This document shows positions 5,597-19,613 of a stretch of DNA of 26,324 nucleotides, piece by piece (the first letter of the stretch is position 1; the number at the start of each line of letters is the position of its first letter). A program made the position numbers and the translations under genes. The notes under the pieces were generated by a model, which was not told the DNA's origin, did not search any database, and saw nothing but the letters and a program-made list of their open reading frames with translations. This DNA comes from a virus. The stretch is taken from the IMG/VR virus record IMGVR_UViG_3300005663_000182, positions 1 to 26,324 of that record. The stretch is one strand, 5' to 3'.

Positions 5597-8500
5597 ATGA
5601 CATTCCCTAGAGACCCAAGTGACTTCAACTTGGGAGGTGCGCCAGATGCCCCCAAGGCAGAGGGCACTCCCCCGAGTGGCGTAGAGAACCTCGAAAAGGT
5701 CCAGAAACTTAATCTTGCCAAATTCAGGAAGTTTGAGGAATCCCGCAAGGGAAAACTGTTTCTTCCTGGTCCCTATGAACCCTACCCAGGAGTATTTCAA
5801 AGTCCTCAAGCGTGGTTTGAAAAACAAGTCGCAAGTATGGCAGAAGTTTCCATGCCCGACTTTCTTCCCGTAAACACAGAGAGAGACGAGTATCATCTTC
5901 CAGTTGCATGGTCACAGAACTGGCAGAACCAAGTGCTTGGTCCCAATGACGAGGCACTGCCCAAAGGTGCTTTTAGTTGGGACAGGTTCGGAGAACCATA
6001 CTTTGGTGAACCTGGAGACTTCGGGTTATGGGGAGATTTCAAAAACTGGATAAAGAAGGCGTGGTGGCAATTATGGGTGCCCTCCGAAGACGCTCCCCCA
6101 TTCACGGCGTTTGGTAAAGACTGGGAGGCGAGATTGCTCGAAGCAACAGAAGGTCAGATTGTAGGGCCAGGACAGGCACTTTCTTCCATTAAACCATTTA
6201 TAGAAGTAGTTTATCCAGAAATAATGACGCTGCTCAAAGAGATGGGGGATAGGGCAAGAAACCCCGATGTAGCAGAGGGGCCTGTACGAACCATACTGGC
6301 GACGGGGGGTAGGGTAGCTGGAGAATTTATCAAGGGGGTCGGGGACCTAGTAAACCTCATTCCCCAGGCATTTGAAAAAATAACGGGGGCGGTGCTTGTT
6401 CCCGCCGCTGTGCTGGCTGACCGTTCGAGTCTTGCTCCGTTGGGAGACGAAGGTTGGGACAAATTCTTCAAGAACGCCAATTTCTTTGTAGTTGCTCCAG
6501 GACGTATTTATCAGATAGGGCGTGCGGTGGAAGCCGTTCTTTCGGGCAGATGGACACCGAAAGAAGCGATAGGCATTATCACAGACCTCGATACTAACTT
6601 TCAGGCAGCACGTATAGCCTATTCTCTTATTTCCCATGAAGGGTTGGCAGCCGACTATATAAGACGCATGGAGGAAGGCGCTGACCCCCGATTACTGGCA
6701 TTGGAACTCGAAGACCCAGTAGCAGAGATGTGGGGGCAGATATTGAACGACCCACTTGTATTGTGGGGAATGTTAGGTAAGGGGAAAAAGGCTGTCGCTG
6801 CTCTTGATATTGCCGACGCAAAACTGGCAGGCGATACGCAAATAATGGAATTAATGGCTCAATCTCCGACGACATCTACAAAAGGGATACTTGACCATCT
6901 TGATGAAATTGCCGAGGCAACCGGCAGACTCTACGACGACGTAAGACTTGGCACTACTGAATTAGGTGCACTAAGAAGGCGGAAGGTATTGATAGCTAGT
7001 GCCAAGCAATCTGTTTATGGGAGAGAGGCCCAGGACGTATTGGGCGTTCTCGCTGCGCATCACTACGGCGATGGTGACAAGCTGTTTGACACACTTGAAG
7101 CATTAGCTAGATTAGCTAGTGATGACATTCTAGTACGCAAACAAGCATGGCTGGCGCTTGGTAGGTCAGGATTGCCAGTAAGCTATTTAACCTCTTCGCC
7201 TGTTACACGAACTGCTATTGTTCTGCGTGACCTATTATTTGACTCTGGGGGGAGATTAAGTAGCGGGCTGGCAGACGATATTGCCAGAGTGGCAGGCAAT
7301 CCTGACGAACTCATAGAAATATGGTCGAAAAAGATAGATAACATCTATAAAGATAAGTTCCCCAATGTTCAACAGCAAGTAGCACAGGGCAAGAGATATG
7401 CTGAACTATTAGCCGACGATGCAGAGAAAGCTGCTGAATTTCTGCGAAAGAATCCACTCGCAGACCAAGCAATATCCCCGGGAATGTTGCGTGCGGCAGA
7501 CTTCCATAAGGCCATGACCAAATGGGTATTCAAGCCCATGCACGGCGCGCAGGGCGCTTTGTACATGGTGCTTAGTCCGGCGTATTGGGCTAGAAACCGT
7601 CTATCAAATGCGTTCCACGTTTTCGTTGACCATGGAATTAAGCCTGGGTTGCGGGCACTAAGATATGGCCCTGGTAAAGCACTCGAAGAAATAAGGATGA
7701 TGACTGGGGGCTGGTCGCCCACGGGAGCGCGCATGGCATTCGGAGGCCCTGCATCTGAGGCTGCTGGGTTTTTCCCCAGTCTCAAGAGAGGCTTTCTCGG
7801 CAAGGCCGCTAGAGATGAGGCTGCGGCAGGACAGGTTATTCAGGCTCACTCGATACGCAAGACCATGCTCAACGCACTTCAGGAAGGCCGTGCAATACCC
7901 GACCTATCCGCCATAAGAGGTATGACAGGAGACGAGGCGGCTTATCTCGTTGGATTAGTGCGTGACAATTTTGGTGATGTAGATAAGGCCATTACAGAAT
8001 TCTTCTCATTCAGGGGCCAAGCAAGACGCCACATGGGCTTCTTGTCTATAGAGGACCAAAAGATACTTAGAGACCACCGCATGTATGACGATGTGATGGC
8101 TTCCTACAGAGAAGGTGGAACTTGGGATGATGTCAGCTCTCGAATAGATGACCTGAAAGATGAATACGACGAACTCGCTGACCTGTCGGCGGGAGAGGCG
8201 GCGTCGCTAGATACGGCGAATATGACGGTGCAGGAAGCCAATACTTATACCAAGGATGTTGAGGCAATCAGGGCCAATATAGGTGATGAAGCGGCAGATT
8301 TAATGACTCGCAGAATCAATACCAATAGGGAATTCAGGAGAGTCAGTTCCAAGGCGGTCAGAGAAATAGAGACAATGGCCCATCGTCTGGACTCGGAAGC
8401 CGATGCTATCCGCGCGCTCAGTGACCCCGACTTCGCGCTCAGACAGAGAATGTCTAGCCTAGAAGAGATACCAGGACAAGCGGCGGATATTGGGTACACT

Positions 8501-11500
8501 CGCCTCAAGACCAAGTACGCCGAACAAACACAAGGCTTAGAGAATTTATGGGACGGTGTTTATAAGAGAGCCGATGACTTCCGAGAGTCTAGGTGGGATT
8601 TAACACGAAGGTCGAAGGAAAGGGGTGTTAATTTTAGAGAATTATGGAGAGAGGCTGGATTAGGGGACACTCCACCCAGAGGCTTGGGTAAAGAAGAATT
8701 CAATAGGGAACTTTGGAAGAACTATCGCACGAAAAGAGAGTTGATGTTCACGGGCGTCAGAGACCAGCAGTGGCAAATCGAAAACATCCTCATAGATACA
8801 CTTGAGGAATTCGTTCCAGGGCTAAATACAAACACAACTCTTCGCAATAGGGCCTCGGCGCTTTATGACCGTTCGCGGATGCTGGATAACGCATTCATAG
8901 ATGCGCAGGGGCGGGCTTGGACATTGCGGAGGTTGGCAGGTCCAGTAGATGAGGCTGCACTAGCCGCGGAACGAAGCGCGCTAAGAGATAGGCTATTTGA
9001 CCCAAAGACACCAGATACTGAATTAGACGCAATTAGAAAGCGCATGGTGGAGATAGATAATGAATTACAGTCCGCCGCCGCACGTATTGAAGAAATGCGC
9101 CAACCAGTATTCCAGCAAGAAAAGATTGACCAAATATCCGCAAGAGTTTTGAGAGGCGAAATTCCCAAGGAAGAGGGCGATAGGCTAATAGCCCTGCTGA
9201 CTGAAGAGGCCCCTGAAGCAGTTGGGTTTACAGATGAATTTGTACCGCAAGCCGAACTCGATGAAGCACTTAAGACACGCAAGATAGTGGATGGCGTTCC
9301 CGAGGGCGCTGAACCAATTCCTGCCGCAGAGACATCTGGGATAACGCCTACTGGGCCACGCGTTGCCGAAGAGACTAGAGGCGGGCTGTGGAAGTGGGTG
9401 GACGAAACTCTCAAGCCACAATTAGAGGAAAACTTCAACAGTGTTCCGGTATCATCAGAATCCGCAGTGCTGCAAAGCGACCTACGTGCTTGGGGAGTGG
9501 AGGCCAAGGCACGGGTTACTCAAGCTCGTGCGACATCAATAGAAATAGCCAATGAAGCACGCAAATTCACATTGCATGATTATGGGGAGCGTTTCGGGAT
9601 AGACCTCGCCGCAATGTATATATACCCGTACCAATTCTGGCACTCACGGACTTATATAAAATGGTTCAAGCGCATCATGGCTGACCCCGCGATATTCTCT
9701 GTGTATAGTACGTATCGAACTGCGATGGAGAAAGTACATGCAGGGCTACCTGATTGGTGGAAGTTCCAACTCAACACGAATGAACTTCTGGGGATAGAAT
9801 CGGAAAATCCTCTGTATTTCAATCTTGAGGCCACAATAAGTCCGCTCCATGCTTTGACAGGGGCAGACTACAACGACAAATACAAACGCGTGGACACAAT
9901 ATCCAGCGGCCTTGATGATTTGAATAAGTTTGGTCCCTCGACGTGGACTATATTTTCTTTGGCATTAGCGACTTACTATAATATCAAAGGCAAAGAAGAG
10001 GCAGCCGCCAGATGGGCTGGGAGACTGTTCACAGGAACCCGTGCTTTCAGAGACCTAACAGCGTTATTGGGCGTAGAAGAAGGCAGGGGAATAGAGATAG
10101 ACCCCCTCATCAATACGTTTTCTGGAGGCATTGGGCCATACGAACGCCCGCGGGTGGGGCTGGCATTGGGCGACATGCTTGACGAGGGCTATTCGGAAGA
10201 GGACTTAATTGATGCTGGAAACCAGCAATCGGGTCCTGTTTGGGAAGATGCGGTTGCCAGAATGATTCAAGCCCGTGCGGGAGGAAACTTGTTCGGGTTT
10301 ATTGCTGGCGTAGGATTCAAGCCACGTTCACAGACAGACATTCAAATAGACCAGATGTACAACGATATGTATGCGACTATCAGGAATAGGGAAAATTTCT
10401 CTGAACAAGAATACCAAGATAGGTGGGAACAACTGCGGGAGGCCTACCCATTCCTGGATGTTGTGCTGCTTTCGAGAAAGGGCGGATTAGAGAGAGACGA
10501 GGCATTCGCATGGAACGTACTGCGTAGAATTCCCCCCAGTATGAACAGAGAATTCGCAGGGCTAGTGGGGATGCAGGAAGAAGCCATTTCCAGGTTCTAT
10601 GAAAGCAAGGGAGACCTGACTTTGCTAACAGAATCTGAAAGAATGGATTTTATGGCGGGCATCATTGACCTCGGGGCAATTCTGGCGATACCGCCTGGAA
10701 CTACGAGACAGCAGTGGCAGAGGGCCAGAACTGCATATTCTGTGATGCGGGAACGGGGAGAAGAACAGTTCGGAGATGACATCTGGGACCGCATAGACGT
10801 GTACTTCGGTGCCAAGGGCGACACGCAATTAGAGAAAGATAGGGCCGAAACGATACTCAAGAGCGACCCCAAAATCAGCGAGGCATTGGACTGGCAGGCG
10901 CTATTCATAGGAAATAATCCATTCCTGAGTCCCTACTATAATGGCTTGAACAAGATAGAGGGCTACTTCAAGGGCCAAATGTACAAGACGCTAGAGGAGA
11001 ACTTCGGGTCTGACATCTGGGAGAAGTGGGATGTATATTGGGGATTGAAGGATATAGGCGGGGAATTCAGAGATTATTGGAAGGCCCATCCAGAACTGGG
11101 TAATTATAGTGAGATGAAGGAAGAACTCTTGGAGGGCATCGAGGACCACTTCGAGCAGTTCCAGGGGATATTCCCTGAAGCATTACCTGCTACCACGCGG
11201 CCAGACGTAGAGGCCGAGACGGCGGCCCAGCAAGCTTTACTCGAAGCATTGACTCAGCAGTTGCGACCGTCGCCACAAGAGTTGATACAGTTACTGGGAG
11301 AGCCATTATTTGGCCTAATCAGTCTAGGGGGACCACTCCCAGAGATAGCTGAGAGGCGACTGGAGGAGATAGCAGACGAACTAGGAATGACCTCGCAGGA
11401 TTTACAGCAATTGGCTACGACAGGATTTTTGCCTGCACCCCCAGAAGAATCCGCTTTGCCACCGGCGGCAGTAGCAGAGCAACCGATACCCACTGCGCCC

Positions 11501-12313
11501 TCTCCGCGGCCAGGGCGTGATTTTGCTCTTCTGCCTCAAAGACCACAACAGGGAGAAGCGGGCAGGGGCCTGATTGAAGGCCCGCGACCCGAGGGCGGCA
11601 TAGAGCGATTGGCGTATGATATTGTAACTGGCTTGATGACAGCGAATGAGTTTTTGTCTCCGGCCAAAAGAGGCGAGCGCGAGGGACTAAAAGAAGATTT
11701 GGCGGAGGACTTCCCAGGATTAACAGAAGATTTCTTGCAGATTATCAATTATGCTAAAGTTCGCGAAAGACCAAAACTACTTGAGCGCATGGGGGAAACT
11801 GGTGTTGTTGAAGACCAAATTGTAACACAAGCGCCAGGAGGAATAGCCGTAAGGTTTGATATTTTCGGCGATTTTGCCGAGGTGACTGGTCCCACACTAG
11901 TTCATGATTTATCTGACCGCAACATAGTGCTTCACGAATTGGCCCATCATGCAGACGCAGTGGTTGGAGGAACTGCGAGGAGAATATCGAGTAGTCCTGG
12001 GTTCAAACGAGCTATACAGGATGTTCGTGAAATGTTTGAAGAACGCGAAGAACACATAGATACGCCATATTATCCGATAATAGAACTTGTGGAGACGTTT
12101 CCGGGCATTGGCGGGAACGAGAGAACTCCGCTAGTTAATTGGGGCGGCAAAATAGAATTGTATGCCACAATCTTTGGGGCTGCAAAGGGCTTTTTAGATA
12201 ATATTCCCCCGCCAATGCGACCGTTTTTTGAGAGGTGGATGGAATTCGCCCCGCCGCAAGGTGAAGGGCGAAGGCCACCACAAAGAGAACGAATTAGGGG
12301 AGGTCAACCATAG
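5597..12313 (+). CDS. Giant multidomain virion-type protein with C-terminal HExxH metallopeptidase-like domain (2238 aa)
   Basis: The start abuts the previous TAA with no clear ribosome-binding site, so translation is probably coupled. Visible layout: residues 1-640, helical and Trp-rich in parts; about 645-680, a hydrophobic segment (ALYMVLSPAYWARNRLSNAF); about 844-1010, long charged helices, likely coiled coil; about 1080-1250, further charged helices; about 1326-1360, an aromatic hydrophobic segment (AAMYIYPYQFWHSRTYIKW); about 1720-1850, two related units around IWDRIDVYFG and IWEKWDVYWG; about 1945-2000, a Pro-rich linker. The end carries HELAHH with ligand-like H2113, E2114 and H2117, and a downstream ELYA (E2187) that could be the third ligand of a gluzincin-like zinc peptidase. 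Size and place suggest an internal or ejected virion protein, or a polyvalent-type effector. Head maturation is another possibility. Function is not established. Confidence 0.8.
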   Translation: MTFPRDPSDFNLGGAPDAPKAEGTPPSGVENLEKVQKLNLAKFRKFEESRKGKLFLPGPYEPYPGVFQSPQAWFEKQVASMAEVSMPDFLPVNTERDEYHLPVAWSQNWQNQVLGPNDEALPKGAFSWDRFGEPYFGEPGDFGLWGDFKNWIKKAWWQLWVPSEDAPPFTAFGKDWEARLLEATEGQIVGPGQALSSIKPFIEVVYPEIMTLLKEMGDRARNPDVAEGPVRTILATGGRVAGEFIKGVGDLVNLIPQAFEKITGAVLVPAAVLADRSSLAPLGDEGWDKFFKNANFFVVAPGRIYQIGRAVEAVLSGRWTPKEAIGIITDLDTNFQAARIAYSLISHEGLAADYIRRMEEGADPRLLALELEDPVAEMWGQILNDPLVLWGMLGKGKKAVAALDIADAKLAGDTQIMELMAQSPTTSTKGILDHLDEIAEATGRLYDDVRLGTTELGALRRRKVLIASAKQSVYGREAQDVLGVLAAHHYGDGDKLFDTLEALARLASDDILVRKQAWLALGRSGLPVSYLTSSPVTRTAIVLRDLLFDSGGRLSSGLADDIARVAGNPDELIEIWSKKIDNIYKDKFPNVQQQVAQGKRYAELLADDAEKAAEFLRKNPLADQAISPGMLRAADFHKAMTKWVFKPMHGAQGALYMVLSPAYWARNRLSNAFHVFVDHGIKPGLRALRYGPGKALEEIRMMTGGWSPTGARMAFGGPASEAAGFFPSLKRGFLGKAARDEAAAGQVIQAHSIRKTMLNALQEGRAIPDLSAIRGMTGDEAAYLVGLVRDNFGDVDKAITEFFSFRGQARRHMGFLSIEDQKILRDHRMYDDVMASYREGGTWDDVSSRIDDLKDEYDELADLSAGEAASLDTANMTVQEANTYTKDVEAIRANIGDEAADLMTRRINTNREFRRVSSKAVREIETMAHRLDSEADAIRALSDPDFALRQRMSSLEEIPGQAADIGYTRLKTKYAEQTQGLENLWDGVYKRADDFRESRWDLTRRSKERGVNFRELWREAGLGDTPPRGLGKEEFNRELWKNYRTKRELMFTGVRDQQWQIENILIDTLEEFVPGLNTNTTLRNRASALYDRSRMLDNAFIDAQGRAWTLRRLAGPVDEAALAAERSALRDRLFDPKTPDTELDAIRKRMVEIDNELQSAAARIEEMRQPVFQQEKIDQISARVLRGEIPKEEGDRLIALLTEEAPEAVGFTDEFVPQAELDEALKTRKIVDGVPEGAEPIPAAETSGITPTGPRVAEETRGGLWKWVDETLKPQLEENFNSVPVSSESAVLQSDLRAWGVEAKARVTQARATSIEIANEARKFTLHDYGERFGIDLAAMYIYPYQFWHSRTYIKWFKRIMADPAIFSVYSTYRTAMEKVHAGLPDWWKFQLNTNELLGIESENPLYFNLEATISPLHALTGADYNDKYKRVDTISSGLDDLNKFGPSTWTIFSLALATYYNIKGKEEAAARWAGRLFTGTRAFRDLTALLGVEEGRGIEIDPLINTFSGGIGPYERPRVGLALGDMLDEGYSEEDLIDAGNQQSGPVWEDAVARMIQARAGGNLFGFIAGVGFKPRSQTDIQIDQMYNDMYATIRNRENFSEQEYQDRWEQLREAYPFLDVVLLSRKGGLERDEAFAWNVLRRIPPSMNREFAGLVGMQEEAISRFYESKGDLTLLTESERMDFMAGIIDLGAILAIPPGTTRQQWQRARTAYSVMRERGEEQFGDDIWDRIDVYFGAKGDTQLEKDRAETILKSDPKISEALDWQALFIGNNPFLSPYYNGLNKIEGYFKGQMYKTLEENFGSDIWEKWDVYWGLKDIGGEFRDYWKAHPELGNYSEMKEELLEGIEDHFEQFQGIFPEALPATTRPDVEAETAAQQALLEALTQQLRPSPQELIQLLGEPLFGLISLGGPLPEIAERRLEEIADELGMTSQDLQQLATTGFLPAPPEESALPPAAVAEQPIPTAPSPRPGRDFALLPQRPQQGEAGRGLIEGPRPEGGIERLAYDIVTGLMTANEFLSPAKRGEREGLKEDLAEDFPGLTEDFLQIINYAKVRERPKLLERMGETGVVEDQIVTQAPGGIAVRFDIFGDFAEVTGPTLVHDLSDRNIVLHELAHHADAVVGGTARRISSSPGFKRAIQDVREMFEEREEHIDTPYYPIIELVETFPGIGGNERTPLVNWGGKIELYATIFGAAKGFLDNIPPPMRPFFERWMEFAPPQGEGRRPPQRERIRGGQP

Positions 12314-13121: not shown

Positions 13122-14351
13122 ATGACTATAACGCAGTTATCAACACTGCCAAACAGTCTGCGTGTTCGACACCTAAATGATTACCTTATGGGTGCAATGC
13201 GTCGTAGATTCTACGACCAAGTTGCATCGCCAATTGACGAGCTTTCTGCTGCGGCAGGTGCCGCAAATGACATGGCGGAGTTATCAAGGGGTGGAACTGT
13301 TCGGATTACGTTTATATCCGATATGGGCATTACCACCACGCCATTGAGTGAAGTTCAGGACATCGCCCCGCAGACACTTGCGGACACCTCCACAGATATA
13401 CTCGTGGATATGTACGGAGATGGTATCCAAACCTCACAGAAAGCCTTGATTGAATATTTCACCAACTATGGTGTTAGCTCTCCCGCAAAAGTTGGGCTTA
13501 ACATGATGGAGACGGTAGATTTCAAGGCCATGGAAGCTGCTCTTGGTGGAGATTTGGTATTCAGGCAACAGGTTAGAAATAAACTGGATGCCGGTACGAC
13601 AGCAGACAGAGCGTCAGATAGTGATTTTTCACAAGTTGCTGCACGACTCTCGCAATTCAATACCCCTGGATGGGAAGGGGAAAATCGTCCCATGAACTGG
13701 GTGGGACTCACTGACCATTTCGTTGTGAACGACATCGCTCAGGGCGGAAACGTGGTCAATGTTGCAATCTATCAGGACCAAGAAATGGTTTTGAATAATG
13801 AAATCGGAAGACTTCACCAAATCAAAATCGTAGCAAGCGGATTTGCGAAAATCTTCTTGGGCGCAGGAACAGTGAACACTAGCGCCGTGGCTACAACCAT
13901 CACAACTGCCGTGGGCAGACTTGCGCGCACAGTGGTTCTTGGTTCTACTGCTAATGTAGTGGTAGGCAAATGGCTGAATATCTGGAATGCCGAGGAAACA
14001 GGCAGCACATTCTATCCAGACAATGAGCGCGTGATGGTTGCGTCGCTCCCTGGTGGGACAACTGTTACCTTCGTAGGCAGCGCAGATAACGGTGGCTTAC
14101 GCTTTGCGCAGGCTGCTGGACGGACGGTAAACAACGCAGACAGCGTTCATACCATCTTGTTTGGAGGGCCAAGCTCGGTAGCAAAGATTTATGCACCTAG
14201 TGTCAACGAGTTTGGTACATTGGTCGGCCCGAAGTTACAGGGTCTTGCCGAGCAGTGGACTAGCTTCGCATGGAAATGGTTCGGCGGATATGGTATACCC
14301 AGTCAGAACTGGATACACCGTGGCGAATTTTCCGTAAGCGAGGAGGCATAA
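13122..14351 (+). CDS. Major capsid protein, N4 gp56-like, with an inserted beta-rich domain
   Basis: This would be the main shell subunit, with an HK97-type fold. Features matching the N4-gp56-like capsid family as I know it are an N-terminal helical arm (about 10-55), a domain containing the segment EIGRLHQIKIVASGFAKIF (about 227-245), and a C-terminal region QWTSFAWKWFGGYGIPSQNW (about 378-397) followed by a beta strand near the end. Residues about 248-348 are Thr/Val/Gly-rich and beta-like (TTITTAVGRLARTVVLGSTA), and look like an inserted domain, perhaps exposed on the capsid surface. The gene follows the scaffold by 12 nt, with a modest AAAGG site. Family assignment is from remembered sequence style; capsid identity is well supported by context. 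Confidence 0.8.
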   Translation: MTITQLSTLPNSLRVRHLNDYLMGAMRRRFYDQVASPIDELSAAAGAANDMAELSRGGTVRITFISDMGITTTPLSEVQDIAPQTLADTSTDILVDMYGDGIQTSQKALIEYFTNYGVSSPAKVGLNMMETVDFKAMEAALGGDLVFRQQVRNKLDAGTTADRASDSDFSQVAARLSQFNTPGWEGENRPMNWVGLTDHFVVNDIAQGGNVVNVAIYQDQEMVLNNEIGRLHQIKIVASGFAKIFLGAGTVNTSAVATTITTAVGRLARTVVLGSTANVVVGKWLNIWNAEETGSTFYPDNERVMVASLPGGTTVTFVGSADNGGLRFAQAAGRTVNNADSVHTILFGGPSSVAKIYAPSVNEFGTLVGPKLQGLAEQWTSFAWKWFGGYGIPSQNWIHRGEFSVSEEA

Positions 14352-14352
14352 C

Positions 14353-14943
14353 ATGGCTACTGGAACAAGTACTTATGATGGCCTCGGAATGGGGCTTCAA
14401 GGCGAATATGAACTCACGCAGCAAGTCTCTGCAACCGACTGCTTCACAATCACTGGCGCAGCCACAGATGGAGCTGGGACTCTGCTCACTATCCAAAACA
14501 GTGCCAAAGCTCCCGCAGTAAACGGGTTCCGCATCTTCGACTATGGACGGACAAGGTTAATCAGAACAGACGATGCTGCACATGGCGGGGCATTCAAGAA
14601 CGCTCTGGATGTCAAGTATGACCTCAATGTTGCCGCTGGCGCATCACAAATCTATGCCGCAACATTCATTCTTGACACAGCGGGCGGCACGTGGTCGGGT
14701 GGCCGTTTCTCGGTTATCCAGCTACAATCCTATGGTGATTCTGGAGTGTCGGCAGGAAATGCCGCATCTTGGATTCACTTAAATGACCTCGGCACTACCG
14801 AAGTAAAAACGTTCTTGCATGTCCTTGGTTCGACTATCGACACTGGGATTATGGAATCAATAACCGACGCAAGCACGACACACGGACTGGTGATGTATTG
14901 GCAGAATACAAAATACTACATCCTGGTAAGTAGCTCGTCATAA
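14353..14943 (+). CDS. Probable capsid decoration or minor head protein (196 aa)
   Basis: It starts 1 nt after the capsid stop, with GGAGG just upstream. The product is rich in Gly, Ala, Thr and Ser, with alternating beta-like stretches (ATDGAGTLLTIQNSA; AATFILDTAGGTWSGGRFSV), no signal peptide and no membrane segment. Compact beta-rich proteins encoded immediately after the capsid gene are commonly decoration proteins that bind the shell exterior. No specific family motif is seen, so a head-completion protein remains possible. Confidence 0.55.
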   Translation: MATGTSTYDGLGMGLQGEYELTQQVSATDCFTITGAATDGAGTLLTIQNSAKAPAVNGFRIFDYGRTRLIRTDDAAHGGAFKNALDVKYDLNVAAGASQIYAATFILDTAGGTWSGGRFSVIQLQSYGDSGVSAGNAASWIHLNDLGTTEVKTFLHVLGSTIDTGIMESITDASTTHGLVMYWQNTKYYILVSSSS

Positions 14944-14958: not shown

Positions 14959-15273
14959 ATGGTACTGTCTGTACTTGATAGAGTCATACTGCTAACGATT
15001 CTTCCCAAAGAGGGAAACTATCTGACGCTGAAAATCCTCATGGATTTACGCATGACCATGTCGTTTACCGAAAGTGAGATGAAACAATTCAATCTCAAAA
15101 TAGATGACGAAACTGGTCAGACAACATGGGAAAATGCTGAAGATGTTGAAGTCCCAATAGGGGAAAAAGCTACAGACATAATCATAGAGGCCCTCGGGAA
15201 GCTAGACCAAGAGGGCAGCCTTAATCCAGAGATGATAGATACATACGAAAAATTCATCTCTCCAACTGAATAG
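14959..15273 (+). CDS. Small acidic hypothetical protein (104 aa)
   Basis: ATG 14959 follows a good TAGGAGAAAA ribosome-binding site. It starts with a hydrophobic helix (VLSVLDRVILLTILPKEGNY) and continues as an acidic alpha/beta protein with a segment EVPIGEKATDIIIEALGKLD (about 63-82). Similar small proteins occur in phage genomes to my recollection, without a known function. It is the last gene before the hairpin at 15282-15306, so it probably belongs to the capsid transcription unit. Confidence 0.65.
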   Translation: MVLSVLDRVILLTILPKEGNYLTLKILMDLRMTMSFTESEMKQFNLKIDDETGQTTWENAEDVEVPIGEKATDIIIEALGKLDQEGSLNPEMIDTYEKFISPTE

Positions 15274-15281
15274 AAAGGGAG

Positions 15282-15314
15282 ACTGGGGGCTGAAAACGCC
15301 CCCAGTAAACTTTT
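15282..15314 (+). terminator. Hairpin terminator or attenuator after the capsid block
   Basis: A 9-bp GC-rich perfect stem pairs 15282-15290 (ACTGGGGGC) with 15298-15306, around a 7-nt loop (TGAAAAC). After TAAAC there is a short T4 run at 15311-15314. The stem is strong, but the T-tract is short and not adjacent. It may act as a partial rho-independent terminator lowering expression of the downstream cassette, or as an RNA 3' stabiliser. The next ATG follows the T4 run directly. Confidence 0.6.
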
Positions 15315-16118
15315 ATGGAAATATCTGAATGCCGCATGTGCGGTGGTCCCATTCGCCTTATGCGCCGTGCGGACGGTTCTCTTGACCACTACGAACCAAT
15401 AAACGAGCATGACCGCCACGAACTTCCTAATCCCATATCACCAATTCTTGCAGATTATCTTAGGGCAAATCGAAAGGGAAAGAAGACAGTAGCCCTTGTT
15501 GGAATAGCGTGGTCTACTGGTCCCTGGACACCATTCGGGGAAACCGATGTTTGGGCCATGAATGAGCATCACGATGTTCCCTGGCTCAAAGAAGAGCATG
15601 TTACCGCATGGTTCCAGATTCACCACAAAGACGTTTTTACAGAGGAACTTGAGGCTGGCGTTAACCACTGGGGATGGCTTCAAGAAGAGCACCCCTTCCC
15701 TATTTACATGCACCAAGTTTATGACGATATTCCCTCCAGCGTGAAATTCCCACTTCGAGAAATACGAAAAGAACTTATAGGCAGTCTTTATCGCGGCGAA
15801 GAGAAAGTCAAAGGGCTTTTTTCTTCAACTTTTAATTACCAGATAGCCCTTGCGATATATCAGGGCTACGAAAGAATAGAGCTGTATGGCATCGAGATGC
15901 TTGGCCCAGGAGAATATGGCTGGCAAAGAGAGTGCATGGCGTACTGGTTGAGCAAAGCAGAAACCATGGGAATAGATATTTGGATGCCAGAAGACTGTGC
16001 ATTATTCAATCATCCTCTTTACGGATACGAAGAAGTAAGGGAAGGTGCCACGGGACAAGTTAGCTGGACCTCCTCTCGGAACGAAGAGCCAACATTCGGA
16101 CTTATGCAACCGAGATGA
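15315..16118 (+). CDS. Zn-finger plus Rossmann-like hypothetical protein, possibly glycan-related (267 aa)
   Basis: The start at 15315 has no Shine-Dalgarno sequence and lies just past a hairpin. It is kept because it preserves a CRMCGG knuckle (C6, C9), which with later His residues (DHYEPINEHDRHE) could bind zinc. The body begins with a nucleotide-binding-like strand-loop (KTVALVGIAWSTGPW, about 55-69), then ETDVWAMNEHHDVPW and WFQIHH, then SSTFNYQIALAIYQGYERIE and YGIEMLGPGEYGWQRECM. That pattern recurs in phage proteins of unknown function and resembles the layout of the next gene's GNG(E)SL protein. ATGA coupling to that gene suggests a shared role. A link to sugar transfer is inference. 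Confidence 0.6.
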   Translation: MEISECRMCGGPIRLMRRADGSLDHYEPINEHDRHELPNPISPILADYLRANRKGKKTVALVGIAWSTGPWTPFGETDVWAMNEHHDVPWLKEEHVTAWFQIHHKDVFTEELEAGVNHWGWLQEEHPFPIYMHQVYDDIPSSVKFPLREIRKELIGSLYRGEEKVKGLFSSTFNYQIALAIYQGYERIELYGIEMLGPGEYGWQRECMAYWLSKAETMGIDIWMPEDCALFNHPLYGYEEVREGATGQVSWTSSRNEEPTFGLMQPR

Positions 16119-16780
16119 TTCCCCCAACTGAATTGAAGTATGTCGATGCGGAGTGGACTGATAAATACGCAGGCGACACCGCTATCGTAATCGGCAACGG
16201 GGAAAGTCTGAAAAAGATACCTAGGGAATTACTAAACAAATATCCGAACTTCGGTGCTAATTGTATTTATCTGTTTCCGTTTCAACCAACGTATTACATT
16301 TGCATAGACACAAGGATGTTGAGGAACTATCCTAAAGATATATATGCCACGGCGGCGAAAGCCGAGATAGCATTTCTTAGTGACACGCATATGGGCGAAC
16401 CCGTTGAAGGATTAGAAGAGCTTTATCAACTAGAGAACGCTTATCTTTGCAATGAGAATACGGTAAGGTTTCCTGGCGAGGCTTGGTGGACGGGTGGCAC
16501 ATCGGCATATATGGCATTGAAAATAGCCTACGCCATGGGTTTCAGCACAGTTATTTTGGTAGGATGTGACAGGGACTATGAATGGAAGCATTTCTCAGAC
16601 GACTATCCCGAAGAATCTATAGAGGAATCCCGCAAAGCAGAATTCAGAAGCGGGCAAGAATATCATTTTGTAGTTGCAAGTATAGTTTATAAAGAGGCTG
16701 GCAGGCGCATTGTGAACCTGTCGCTTCCCTCGGCGCTGGACGAATACTTTGGGCGGGGAGAAATCGAGGATTATGCGTAG
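16115..16780 (+). CDS. GNG(P/E)SL-type putative glycosyltransferase-like protein (221 aa)
   Basis: The N-terminus holds DTAIVIGNGESLKKIPRELL (about 20-39). This is a strand-turn motif like the GNGPSL loop of DUF115/MAF-type proteins and CstII-like (GT42) sialyltransferases, which bind a nucleotide-sugar or related ligand. It is followed by GANCIYLFPFQPTYYICID, equivalent to the 'which residue or sugar acceptor' region in those families, and by WWTGGTSAYMALKIAYAMGF with VGCDRDYEW further on. The protein is short and complete, with no signal peptide. It is coupled by ATGA to the previous gene and overlaps the next by 8 nt. Sugar-nucleotide chemistry is likely in outline, but the reaction and acceptor are unknown; a non-catalytic relative cannot be excluded. 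Confidence 0.6.
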   Translation: MIPPTELKYVDAEWTDKYAGDTAIVIGNGESLKKIPRELLNKYPNFGANCIYLFPFQPTYYICIDTRMLRNYPKDIYATAAKAEIAFLSDTHMGEPVEGLEELYQLENAYLCNENTVRFPGEAWWTGGTSAYMALKIAYAMGFSTVILVGCDRDYEWKHFSDDYPEESIEESRKAEFRSGQEYHFVVASIVYKEAGRRIVNLSLPSALDEYFGRGEIEDYA

Positions 16781-17270
16781 GGCATTTTTCGTAATAGGAT
16801 GCGAGTCAACAGGCACCCGTATGATGACCAAGGCGCTTATATCGGCGGGAGCATTCGGGGACAGTGGGCACCAGCAGTCTCTGGACAATCTGAATTTCTA
16901 TGACCGCCCAGACATAATTGTGTTTCGCAGGAGTATTCCACACGCTGATATGTGGCCTCCAATAAACACGCTTCACAGAATGATGATAGCCGCAAGATAC
17001 ACGGTCGCTACGTTTATCATGTGGCGCAAGGAAGAATTCACGATTCAGTCCCAGTTGAGGCGCAACCATGTGCAGAGTGAGGAAAAGGCCAAGGAACAGA
17101 TAAAGAGGGCACTTAAATTAATAGGAGAGTTTTCCCACGGCAAAGAGTGTGAGGTGGTAGGATATGAGCATTTCGTGACTGATGAATGGTATCGCAGTGA
17201 GTTATTCTGGGATTATGGTTTACCCAAACCAACGATTGAATTCTACAACGCAAACGAGGCTTATAAATGA
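16773..17270 (+). CDS. Putative sulfotransferase-like P-loop protein (165 aa)
   Basis: I start at ATG 16773, with GGGGAG 12 nt upstream, rather than the in-frame TTG at 16749; the ATG gives an N-terminus that runs directly into the first strand. AFFVIGCESTGTRMMTKAL (residues 4-22) matches the 5'-phosphosulfate-binding loop style of PAPS-dependent sulfotransferases (hydrophobic strand, G-x-x-S/T-G-T-R/T, helix). DIIVFRRSIPHADMW (about 46-60) resembles the strand and Arg/Ser region that holds the 3'-phosphate. It is shorter than typical sulfotransferases (250-300 aa), so it may be a minimal version or another P-loop kinase or transferase. The genes around it are glycosyltransferase-like, which supports sugar sulfation as a hypothesis. 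Confidence 0.55.
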   Translation: MRRAFFVIGCESTGTRMMTKALISAGAFGDSGHQQSLDNLNFYDRPDIIVFRRSIPHADMWPPINTLHRMMIAARYTVATFIMWRKEEFTIQSQLRRNHVQSEEKAKEQIKRALKLIGEFSHGKECEVVGYEHFVTDEWYRSELFWDYGLPKPTIEFYNANEAYK

Positions 17271-18523
17271 CACTCACCTGTTTATGGCATTCGGCTCCTT
17301 GCTACTACCCGACTGGTTATGGAGTACAAACAAGAGGATTTGCCCACCGCATCGCTGTGTCAGAACATGATATTGCAGTAGTGATGACCACAATAAACCT
17401 TGGGATAGAATGGGAGGGCATACTCCATCTTCCAGGCGGTAAAGAACCATTCTCCATTGAGGGAGTTCTTGAATGGACTAGGAGATTAAAGGCCGACATA
17501 GTGTTCACTCTTTTTGACGTTTGGCCTCTGCCCGAAAATATGGGGGAATTGATAAACAGGATGGGCGCTAAGTGGGCACCTATTGCACCTATAGACCACG
17601 ACCCCATACCGCAAGATGTTTTGAAGAGGCTTATACACGCAGATTACCCCATTGCTATGAGTAGGTTTGCGGAGCGTGAGATGAAGCGAGTGGGCTTGGA
17701 GCCAATATACATTCCGCACGGTGTAGAAACGAACGTGTTTAAGCCCGTGCAGCCCGATAAATCCATGTTTGCTGCCGAAGATATGTTTATGGTGGGGATA
17801 GTAGCGACAAATCTTGAGCCAATGGACAGGAAGGGATGGAAACCCGCACTAGACGCATTTGGGAAGTTCTACCAAAAACACCCCAACAGCCGTCTGTATG
17901 CGCACTGTGAACCATCGCGGGCGGATAGCGGATATGACTTGGCGGCGATTGCCTCAGAATACGGATTTAAGGTTTACACGCCCGATATGTGGCAGCTTGT
18001 GGGCAATGGGATACCGAGTACACGCATGGCGCAAATCTACAGCACGTTCGATGTATTACTTATGCTAACGAGAGGCGAGGGCTTCGGGGTACCGCTGATT
18101 GAGGCACAGGCTTGTGGAACGCCGGTCATCGTTACTGATTTCACTGCCTGTTCAGACTTGGTTGGGGCAGGATGGAAGATACCGATAACTGGGAAACGCT
18201 GGACACCGATGAGTTCCTGGTGGGCAGAACCCGATGTGGATGCAGCAGTCGAGGCGCTAGAGGAAGCATATGATTTGTGGGAAAAGGGCGAGCTTGAAAA
18301 GAAGTTCAAGATAAAGGCTAGGGCATTTGCGAAAGCATATGACTTTGATGTAGTATATCAGATGTACATGGCACCATTTTTGGAGAGAGTAGATGGCGAA
18401 ATTAAAGCGGAAAAAAGTGATGAACGAAGTGGACAAGCGCCCAGTGAACACTCGGGACAAAGAGGAGTGGGTGATAGTGGACAGGGGGATAAACCAAAGA
18501 AAAAGCGTAAACGTAGGCGGTAA
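17267..18523 (+). CDS. GT4-family glycosyltransferase (418 aa)
   Basis: GT-B enzymes of this family transfer a sugar from an activated donor, retaining the anomeric configuration. The N-terminal domain opens with CLWHSAPCYYPTGYGVQTRG, whose Gly-rich loop is typical of the acceptor domain. The C-terminal domain has GIVATNLEPMDRKGW (about 183-197, with the Arg/Lys pair that contacts donor phosphates) and the E-x7-E motif EGFGVPLIE (E271, E279) followed by AQACGTPVI. The core ends near residue 375. The last 43 residues are low complexity, end in a basic cluster (PKKKRKRRR), and overlap the next gene in another frame. It is coupled by ATGA to the sulfotransferase-like gene. The acceptor could be a virion protein, host surface glycan or small molecule. 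Confidence 0.88.
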   Translation: MTLTCLWHSAPCYYPTGYGVQTRGFAHRIAVSEHDIAVVMTTINLGIEWEGILHLPGGKEPFSIEGVLEWTRRLKADIVFTLFDVWPLPENMGELINRMGAKWAPIAPIDHDPIPQDVLKRLIHADYPIAMSRFAEREMKRVGLEPIYIPHGVETNVFKPVQPDKSMFAAEDMFMVGIVATNLEPMDRKGWKPALDAFGKFYQKHPNSRLYAHCEPSRADSGYDLAAIASEYGFKVYTPDMWQLVGNGIPSTRMAQIYSTFDVLLMLTRGEGFGVPLIEAQACGTPVIVTDFTACSDLVGAGWKIPITGKRWTPMSSWWAEPDVDAAVEALEEAYDLWEKGELEKKFKIKARAFAKAYDFDVVYQMYMAPFLERVDGEIKAEKSDERSGQAPSEHSGQRGVGDSGQGDKPKKKRKRRR

Positions 18524-18716
18524 AGAAATTAGGCTATTTTCTTCAGGTGCAACCACCTACGACAAAAAGTTGGCTAATGAAATCAAAGACAAGTACAAAC
18601 ATGACCCCGACATTGGGGTTATTAATAAATCGCATGTCCGATTACAGGGCGCACACAAGACGCATTTTACGGTGCCAGCATTGCCGTGGAAAAAGAAACG
18701 CAACAAGAGGACATAA
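18393..18716 (+). CDS. Small basic hypothetical protein (107 aa) overprinting the glycosyltransferase tail
   Basis: ATG 18393 has a good GGAGAG site about 7 nt upstream, inside the glycosyltransferase gene, and the first 131 nt are read in a different frame from it. The product is Lys/Arg-rich, with beta-like stretches (EEWVIVDRGINQRKSVNVGG), a central GKEIRLFSSGATTYDKKLAN segment and a basic end (PWKKKRNKRT). It ends exactly where the adaptor gene begins. No family is recognised. The non-overlapping two thirds look protein-like and the position suggests a head-tail accessory; both are inferences. Confidence 0.6.
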   Translation: MAKLKRKKVMNEVDKRPVNTRDKEEWVIVDRGINQRKSVNVGGKEIRLFSSGATTYDKKLANEIKDKYKHDPDIGVINKSHVRLQGAHKTHFTVPALPWKKKRNKRT

Positions 18717-19613
18717 ATGGCAACTTTAAGCAACATTCTCAGGGACAGTCTCATGGAACTCGGCGCGGCCACCGTTGGCAAAGCCACTGGCGGCACGACC
18801 GTGACCGTGGTCGATTCCGCCCTCGGGGGTACAGACGACGACTACAACGGCGGGAGCGTCATCGTTACGTATGACAACGGCGGCGCAGCCGCTGCCCCAG
18901 AGGGAGAGTTTGCCAGAGTGGAGGACTACGCCCAGTCCACGGGAACCATAACCGTTCTGACGGCAGACACATTCACTGCCGCAGTGGCAGTAAGCGACGA
19001 GTATCTGGTATCCACGAAGAAGTATCCGCATCAGAAGATGATACGCACTATTAACAGGGCATTGGGGCAAGTAGGCGACATTCCGCGTGTGGACACGACT
19101 ACATTGGATACAGCGTCGTCTCAAACAGAATACACCTACGCATTAGCTTGGAAACGAAGTCCCCCATACCAAGTAGATATACAGATAAAAACCACCGACG
19201 CAAACGATAACCAGTGGCGCAAGATTAGCCGTGGCAAGTGGTATTATGTGCCTGCGGTGGGCGGGACTACAGCACTACTTGTTTTCAAAGAACAACTCCC
19301 CTCAAGCAGGGACCTGCGTATTTGGTACAAGGGGCCGCATCCTGTTGTACAACTGTATAGCGATACTATCTACGAAGGTATTCATGAGGAATGGCTGATT
19401 TGGGAGGTAGTCTACAGGGCGCTACGAGAGAGAATTGCCCGCAGAGACGGACTATCGGAGTGGGAAGTTCAGTTGATGAACGAAGCCAACGCCGAACGTA
19501 AGGAACAGCGTGCCCGTCACAAGATATGGTTCCCCAAGCGAGACACCAAGCTATTCATAGTAAGCCGTGCGGATGTTAGCAGAGACACGATAGCCACACC
19601 TGACCCGCCATGA
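18717..19613 (+). CDS. Probable head-tail adaptor protein (298 aa)
   Basis: The start abuts the previous TAA, with AGAGG upstream. The first ~100 residues are a beta-rich region (GGTTVTVVDSALGG; GGSVIVTYDNGG; FARVEDYAQSTGTITVLTAD) that resembles the 'event/edge' module found at the front of many phage head-tail structural proteins. It is followed by HQKMIRTINRALGQVGDIP, a second beta domain (about 135-215), and long C-terminal helices (LIWEVVYRALRERIARRDGL, then NAERKEQRARHKIWFPKRD) of the kind adaptors use to dock under the portal. Place between the capsid block and the beta-propeller tail gene agrees. Closest role by analogy: tail-tube A or adaptor proteins of short-tailed phages. Confidence 0.6.
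   Translation: MATLSNILRDSLMELGAATVGKATGGTTVTVVDSALGGTDDDYNGGSVIVTYDNGGAAAAPEGEFARVEDYAQSTGTITVLTADTFTAAVAVSDEYLVSTKKYPHQKMIRTINRALGQVGDIPRVDTTTLDTASSQTEYTYALAWKRSPPYQVDIQIKTTDANDNQWRKISRGKWYYVPAVGGTTALLVFKEQLPSSRDLRIWYKGPHPVVQLYSDTIYEGIHEEWLIWEVVYRALRERIARRDGLSEWEVQLMNEANAERKEQRARHKIWFPKRDTKLFIVSRADVSRDTIATPDPP

Follow-up and report, generated by a model that had tools for sequence, protein, structure and literature searches.

Introduction

Glycosylation of phage virions is known from mycobacteriophages, as cited in PMC12619734, PMC11256854 and PMC13313380. According to Freeman et al. (2023), as cited in PMC11256854 and PMC12619734, phages such as Che8 encode glycosyltransferases and carry glycans on their capsid and tail tube subunits. 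Phage Maravista encodes the glycosyltransferases that are associated with its capsid glycans close to the genome's 3' end, at a distance from the genes for the capsid itself (PMC11256854). Sulfotransferases also occur in phages, where their role has been called unclear (PMC10580990). Within the literature searched, we found no sulfotransferase alongside mycobacteriophage virion glycosylation, nor did we find, mostly among papers available without subscription, one that links a sulfotransferase with a glycan slot next to capsid genes.

Here we describe a four-gene cassette in the record of an uncultivated virus. The entire 26.3-kb record (26,324 nucleotides) was analyzed and is hereafter called the window. 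The function proposed for its cassette is like that of Che8-type virion glycosylation, which has been shown by experiment. Unlike the Maravista genes near the 3' end, the window cassette lies directly behind the capsid genes. Phages that glycosylate their virions are thus no novelty, but a capsid-linked slot for sulfotransferases looks new.

A cassette of predicted transferases behind the capsid genes

All main genes of the window lie on the + strand, in the following order:

1255-2775, +: TerL (phrog_38, 2e-50)
Between TerL and the scaffold-like gene: a portal-size gene, then a 2238-aa ORF
12372, upstream of the major capsid protein gene: scaffold-like gene
13122-14351, +: major capsid protein (MCP), 409 aa (phrog_1357 major head protein, 3.1e-9; 65-67% identity in relatives)
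14353-14943, +: 196-aa head-block protein, candidate decoration protein (16-32% identity to positional counterparts)
14959-15273, +: conserved 104-aa head-block protein (about 47-55% identity; position shared by all relatives)
15282-15306, +: GC-rich hairpin in the gap that separates the head block from g1, ending 8 nt 5' of the g1 ATG
15315-16118, +: g1, N-terminal Cys-x2-Cys segment and predicted GT42/MptE-like transferase domain; core gene
16115-16780, +: g2, nonulosonate/Kdo-type transferase-like (MptE/MAF, sialyltransferase, WaaZ); tailoring gene
16773-17270, +: g3, PAPS-sulfotransferase-like protein, 165 aa; tailoring gene
17267-18523, +: g4, GT4 glycosyltransferase by profile matches; core gene
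18393-18716, +: conserved 107-aa ORF, read in a different frame from g4, whose 3' end it overlaps (four relatives at 47-62% identity)
18717-19613, +: 298-aa likely neck/head-tail protein by position (39-53% identity, same place in relatives)

Tail-region genes, including a tailspike-like gene, follow downstream of ORF 18717. An earlier note on this DNA had described four coupled genes inside the structural block, and overlapping ORFs indeed occupy exactly 15315-18523, between the head genes and the likely neck gene. These four + strand ORFs fill the interval without gaps. Both the g1/g2 and the g3/g4 overlaps are ATGA, and g3 most likely starts at ATG 16773, after GAGG and shortly before the g2 stop. 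The placement of the cassette is not a matter of chance, because relatives keep it. They also keep the overlap between ORF 18393 and the 3' end of g4. ORF 18717, which had no PHROG or Pfam assignment below 0.01, is likely a neck gene by its position and forms the downstream border of the slot that holds the cassette.

GT4 relatives recur beside capsid genes

The GT4 label previously given to the last gene is borne out by matches of g4 to phrog_2170 (4.8e-36) and to Glycos_transf_1 models above their cut-offs (PF00534, 1.2e-10, 41.6 bits against 26.4; PF13692, 40.5 against 27). In each of the four phage GT4s that were aligned, the donor-binding EX7E-type motif region reads G-E-G-[FW]-G and then E, with G270, E271, G272, G274 and E279 invariant. 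Judged by sequence family, g4 is beyond doubt a GT4 glycosyltransferase. Its closest solved structure by profile was the chlorovirus glycosyltransferase B736L (PDB 3oy2, 5.7e-12), which is likewise viral but comes from a eukaryotic algal virus and is only a distant GT4 relative of g4.

To place g4 in context, we used 56 dereplicated GT4 loci whose upstream sequence spanned 1.5 kb or more, selected by sequence similarity and not by location. By uncurated, iterated capsid profiles, an MCP match ended within 3.5 kb upstream of the GT4 gene at 39 of the 56 loci, most within 1 kb, and PHROG tallies of the upstream genes agree with this count. The proportion was 34/51 without the window's clade. Upstream neighbors of the GT4 relatives matched major head PHROGs, and downstream neighbors matched GT2, epimerase and methyltransferase models. 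Random placement of a GT4 gene within a phage genome would seldom put it beside the MCP gene. Here, relatives retain a glycosyltransferase gene in linkage with the capsid module. Microcystis phage Mae-JY09 (GT4, GT2, SDR epimerase) and Pontimonas phage phiPsal1 (GT4, methyltransferase, GT2) have a homologous GT4 in the same order behind MCP, at 36-39% identity. Their cassettes differ in having other partner genes, no sulfotransferase and neither g1 nor g2. We found no published discussion of the capsid-adjacent slot in these two phages.

Taken with the layout of the window, these results strongly support a cassette of transferases tied to the capsid module. Given that GT4 genes recur behind MCP and have GT2, epimerase and methyltransferase neighbors, glycan modification of the virion is favored. 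A capsid-adjacent position is neither required for nor proof of virion glycosylation, because the Maravista glycosyltransferases lie away from capsid genes. Moreover, the 26-kb contig is perhaps incomplete, so the cassette may have targets other than the virion.

DNA is often decorated by phage glycosyltransferases, and the transferases described here could conceivably glycosylate, and perhaps sulfate, modified bases of the phage genome. In one metagenomic study, modifying nucleotides was proposed as a role of glyco- and sulfotransferases of phages (PMC10829341). However, the cassette sits behind capsid genes rather than replication genes, no thymidylate-synthase-family base-hydroxymethylase is found in the window, and PF00303 was matched in only 1 of 33 GT4-bearing records tested, most of them partial. 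We therefore regard DNA as a very improbable target.

Predicted identities of g1, g2 and g3

Profile searches gene by gene, as the earlier note had suggested, matched g2 and g4 directly and g3 through its family profile, whereas g1 had no Pfam, PHROG or NCBIfam match. An AlphaFold model of g1 of moderate confidence (pLDDT 77) was closest in fold to the GT42 sialyltransferases CstII and Cst-I, which matched residues 53-233 with Z about 10. MptE-type HPPK and thiamine pyrophosphokinase ranked lower (Z about 8.2). As modeled, g1 is a Cys-x2-Cys segment joined to a Rossmann-type domain shaped like GT42 sialyltransferases; the earlier note had described it as Zn-finger/Rossmann-like. It differs from the GT42, Maf/MptE-like and WaaZ families in having no sequence match to them and in adding the Cys-x2-Cys N-terminal segment. 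Profile comparison detected no similarity between g1 and g2.

Three libraries agree with the proposal that g2 is a GNG(E)SL-type transferase: PF01973 (MptE-like/MAF; 2e-8, borderline at 34.6 bits against a cut-off of 34.6, with only residues 113-155 aligned), phrog_4603 sialyltransferase (5e-7) and the WaaZ model TIGR04437 (2.7e-4). At 20.3 bits, far under the WaaZ equivalog cut-off of 200, g2 appears from its sequence to be a distant relative of WaaZ and not a WaaZ. Although each single match is modest, g2 resembles in sequence proteins that either transfer sugars of the Kdo, sialic or pseudaminic type or have a fold in common with such proteins. No PF01973 match was found in 50 GT4-bearing records, and tblastn of g2 against 50,697 phage records returned nothing. 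Among the records compared, g2 is present only in the window phage.

Bacterial envelope glycans are substrates of GT4, Kdo/sialate-type transferases and sulfotransferases. This, along with the likeness of g2 to the LPS Kdo transferase WaaZ, would suit a cassette that remodels the surface sugars of the infected host, for example to block superinfection or binding to debris, with its late-operon location serving only for timing. Yet no membrane anchor, acetyltransferase or flippase genes were recognized nearby, the GT4 relatives are found time and again immediately after capsid genes in phages whose surrounding genes are otherwise unrelated, and capsid-linked late expression would come late for superinfection exclusion. 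The earlier note had weighed virion modification against host-surface remodeling. On gene position, the former is the better supported, and we consider the latter unlikely.

The window copy of g3 by itself matched no family library. A profile of its 24-member family matched human TPST1 (3e-4), and 9 of the 24 members matched Sulfotransfer_3. The AlphaFold model of g3 (pLDDT 95.7) has a predicted sulfotransferase fold, as solved structures at ranks 1-9 were all sulfotransferases (Z 11.3-12.3 over 149-158 residues, rmsd about 3). Across the family, R84 is invariant and S92 is at least 90% conserved. These residues stand eight apart (R-x7-S) and align with the 3'-phosphate-binding Arg...Ser of TPST1. 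In contrast, the 5' PAPS loop departs from P[KR]SGT, reading GPESSGTR in the family and GCESTGTR in the window: Gly and Thr are kept, and Glu replaces the Lys/Arg after Pro, so the usual basic residue is absent. A kinase-type P-loop NTPase identity was discounted, since g3 lacks a Walker A Lys and its structural matches rank sulfotransferases above kinases.

These features make g3 a likely, if putative, PAPS-dependent sulfotransferase, and the label of sulfotransferase-like P-loop protein holds for its family. It has the predicted fold and 3'-phosphate R...S spacing in common with TPST1/2, curacin-pathway and Stf0 sulfotransferases, from which it differs in its length of 165 aa, about 15% identity and altered 5' PAPS loop. 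Searching 50,697 phage records with three family members by tblastn returned nothing. A GT4 relative was located within the examined flank at 19 of 32 g3-family loci, some of which are near-duplicates. The family was also seen in four cellular contigs, one of which has adjoining phage-like collagen-repeat fiber genes (L149).

A conserved core with exchangeable tailoring genes

Loci related to the window were collected by GT4, g1, g3 and, unbiased towards the cassette, MCP. Scanning viral contigs with the single proteins g1-g4 gave no matches, and alignment queries were required. The MCP-defined set comprised 10 contigs (the window, L140, L141, L104, L009, L011, L008, L144, L145 and L010), all of which have the order MCP, variable ORF, 104-aa ORF and g1. 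Every contig reaching far enough (7/7) has g4 after g1. At about 48-59% identity, g1 and g4 kept each other's company and their position in all relatives that could be assessed. An MCP scan of genome contigs for host assignment recovered no relative.

The slot between g1 and g4 was far less uniform. It holds g2 and g3 in the window, a methyltransferase-like gene and g3 in L104 and L011, a Methyltransf_23 gene in L009 (as in L007, nearly a copy of it), an 86-aa unknown in L140 and, in L141, a sulfotransferase-like gene with a PKSGSHLL start that is truncated where the contig ends (weak PF00685-type match, 0.017). The slot is empty in L008, L010 and L144, and the L145 contig stops before it. Behind its ORF-18393 homolog, L011 has a second, clear PF00685 sulfotransferase (1.9e-13). 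Scans of 50 GT4 records with PF01973 and Sulfotransfer_3 added a single weak match, in L011.

Thus, g1 and g4 form a conserved core, and the genes between or beside them are exchangeable tailoring genes. The earlier note had read the four genes as one pathway whose members should co-occur in relatives. Co-occurrence was upheld for g1 and g4 but not for g2, which is unique to the window, or for g3, which is present in only some clade relatives and also in unrelated phages. Because the middle genes differ between relatives while g1 and g4 co-occur, the locus is better described as a core with interchangeable tailoring genes than as a single four-gene pathway, the set of four not being conserved as a set.

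Variation of the middle genes from phage to phage, and the restriction of g2 to the window, would also be expected if independent morons without a shared substrate had gathered behind the capsid operon, at a site that tolerates insertions. This is difficult to reconcile with the constant pairing of g1 and g4. Furthermore, every inserted gene that has been identified to date encodes a sugar- or group-transferase, except for one 86-aa unknown and homing endonucleases. We find such a gathering of unrelated genes quite unlikely.

A proposed glycan-modification slot of the head module

In our assessment, the head module probably includes this locus as a slot for glycan modification that is expressed late, in which the g1/g4 core builds a glycan on a capsid surface protein and exchangeable genes finish it. 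We infer the following activities and order of steps. Capsid proteins would be made first, in bulk, and a shared late transcript would also yield the transferases, their translation being coupled through the gene overlaps. The core enzymes g4 (GT4) and g1 (GT42-fold) would then build a short glycan on a head surface protein, most likely MCP or the product of ORF 14353. At 16-32% identity, against 65-67% for MCP, divergence is much the more rapid in the ORF 14353 family, as expected of an exposed protein, and its product is a possible glycan acceptor. Tailoring genes would alter the end groups of the glycan, with g2 acting as a second transferase in the window and g3 probably adding sulfate from host PAPS. 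APS kinase, which would indicate PAPS synthesis by the phage itself, was over the cut-off in 0 of 33 GT4-bearing records. Sulfation would be an optional step, and methyltransferases or other sulfotransferases may finish the glycan in relatives. The purpose could be altered virion charge, shielding or adsorption.

More tentatively, tailed phages may carry a dedicated capsid-side slot making a sulfated capsid glycan. Its exchangeable tailoring enzymes, comprising two distinct sulfotransferase types, methyltransferases and nonulosonate-type transferases, would act like a serotype-switching locus of the virion, which we view as possible rather than probable. Virion glycosylation has been shown for a few mycobacteriophages, and this locus suggests that it is widespread among environmental phages. 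The slot offers a recognizable place behind the capsid gene that is tailored by gene swapping, including of sulfotransferases. The proposal predicts negatively charged, sulfated capsid glycans that differ between close relatives with about 65% identical capsid proteins.

A conserved hairpin precedes g1

Of 10 relatives, 9 have upstream of g1 a hairpin whose stem pairs perfectly over 9-13 bp, and L140 has, by eye, an interrupted stem. Stem sequence varies between phages while pairing is kept; the fourth pair, for example, is G-C, A-T or C-G. Stems of at least 9 bp arose in 32 of 2000 mononucleotide shuffles. The distance from the hairpin end to the g1 ATG is steady at 7-10 nt in the perfect-stem copies. 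A plain intrinsic terminator was considered, but a translational role is preferred, because there is no consistent T-run and the distance to the ATG is steady. Attenuation of the enzyme genes behind the capsid genes is an alternative role. An SD-like AAAGGGAG lies directly 5' of the window hairpin, with an SD-like motif likewise 5' in several relatives, and the hairpin is likely a folded spacer that brings this ribosome site to the g1 start codon.

Hairpin upstream of the transferase-like genes

The gap between the head block and g1, the first transferase-like gene behind it, holds a hairpin that recurs among the compared contigs (L-numbers):

15282-15306, hairpin in the window
L010 2153-2184, L008 6995-7023, L009 2752-2780, counterparts
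L104 2722-2749, L088 7909-7936, further counterparts

L140, L141, L144 and L145 carry one at this site too. Its structure is kept across relatives but its sequence is not. The g1 start codon lies 7-10 nt past the end of the hairpin, and a Shine-Dalgarno-like motif is frequent on its 5' side. The hairpin is a candidate split ribosome-binding site or attenuator.

Other features of the window and its relatives

Three further window features were recorded:

5597-12313, 2238-aa ORF lying after the portal region and before the scaffold
14353-14943, head-block protein
18393-18716, conserved 107-aa ORF

The 2238-aa ORF had no Pfam or PHROG matches; its C-terminal part contains a metalloprotease-like HELAHH motif, and its L008 relative shares just 23% identity. 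The head-block protein is extremely variable, with 16-32% identity to its counterparts in relatives, and L007 and L009 each carry two copies of it; it is a candidate for a rapidly evolving decoration protein of the capsid. The 107-aa ORF runs, in a different frame, through the final 131 nt of the GT4 gene, an overlap also found in L008, L010 and L088.

Elsewhere, the sulfotransferase-like gene g3 occurs as two adjacent copies at 5992-7025 of L105, a 430-kb viral contig, downstream of a glycosyltransferase gene (phrog_13126). At 631-2482 of L145, an HNH-endonuclease-like ORF seemingly splits the capsid gene close to its 3' end, suggesting an intron or homing insertion. GIY-YIG-like ORFs surround the neck gene in L008.
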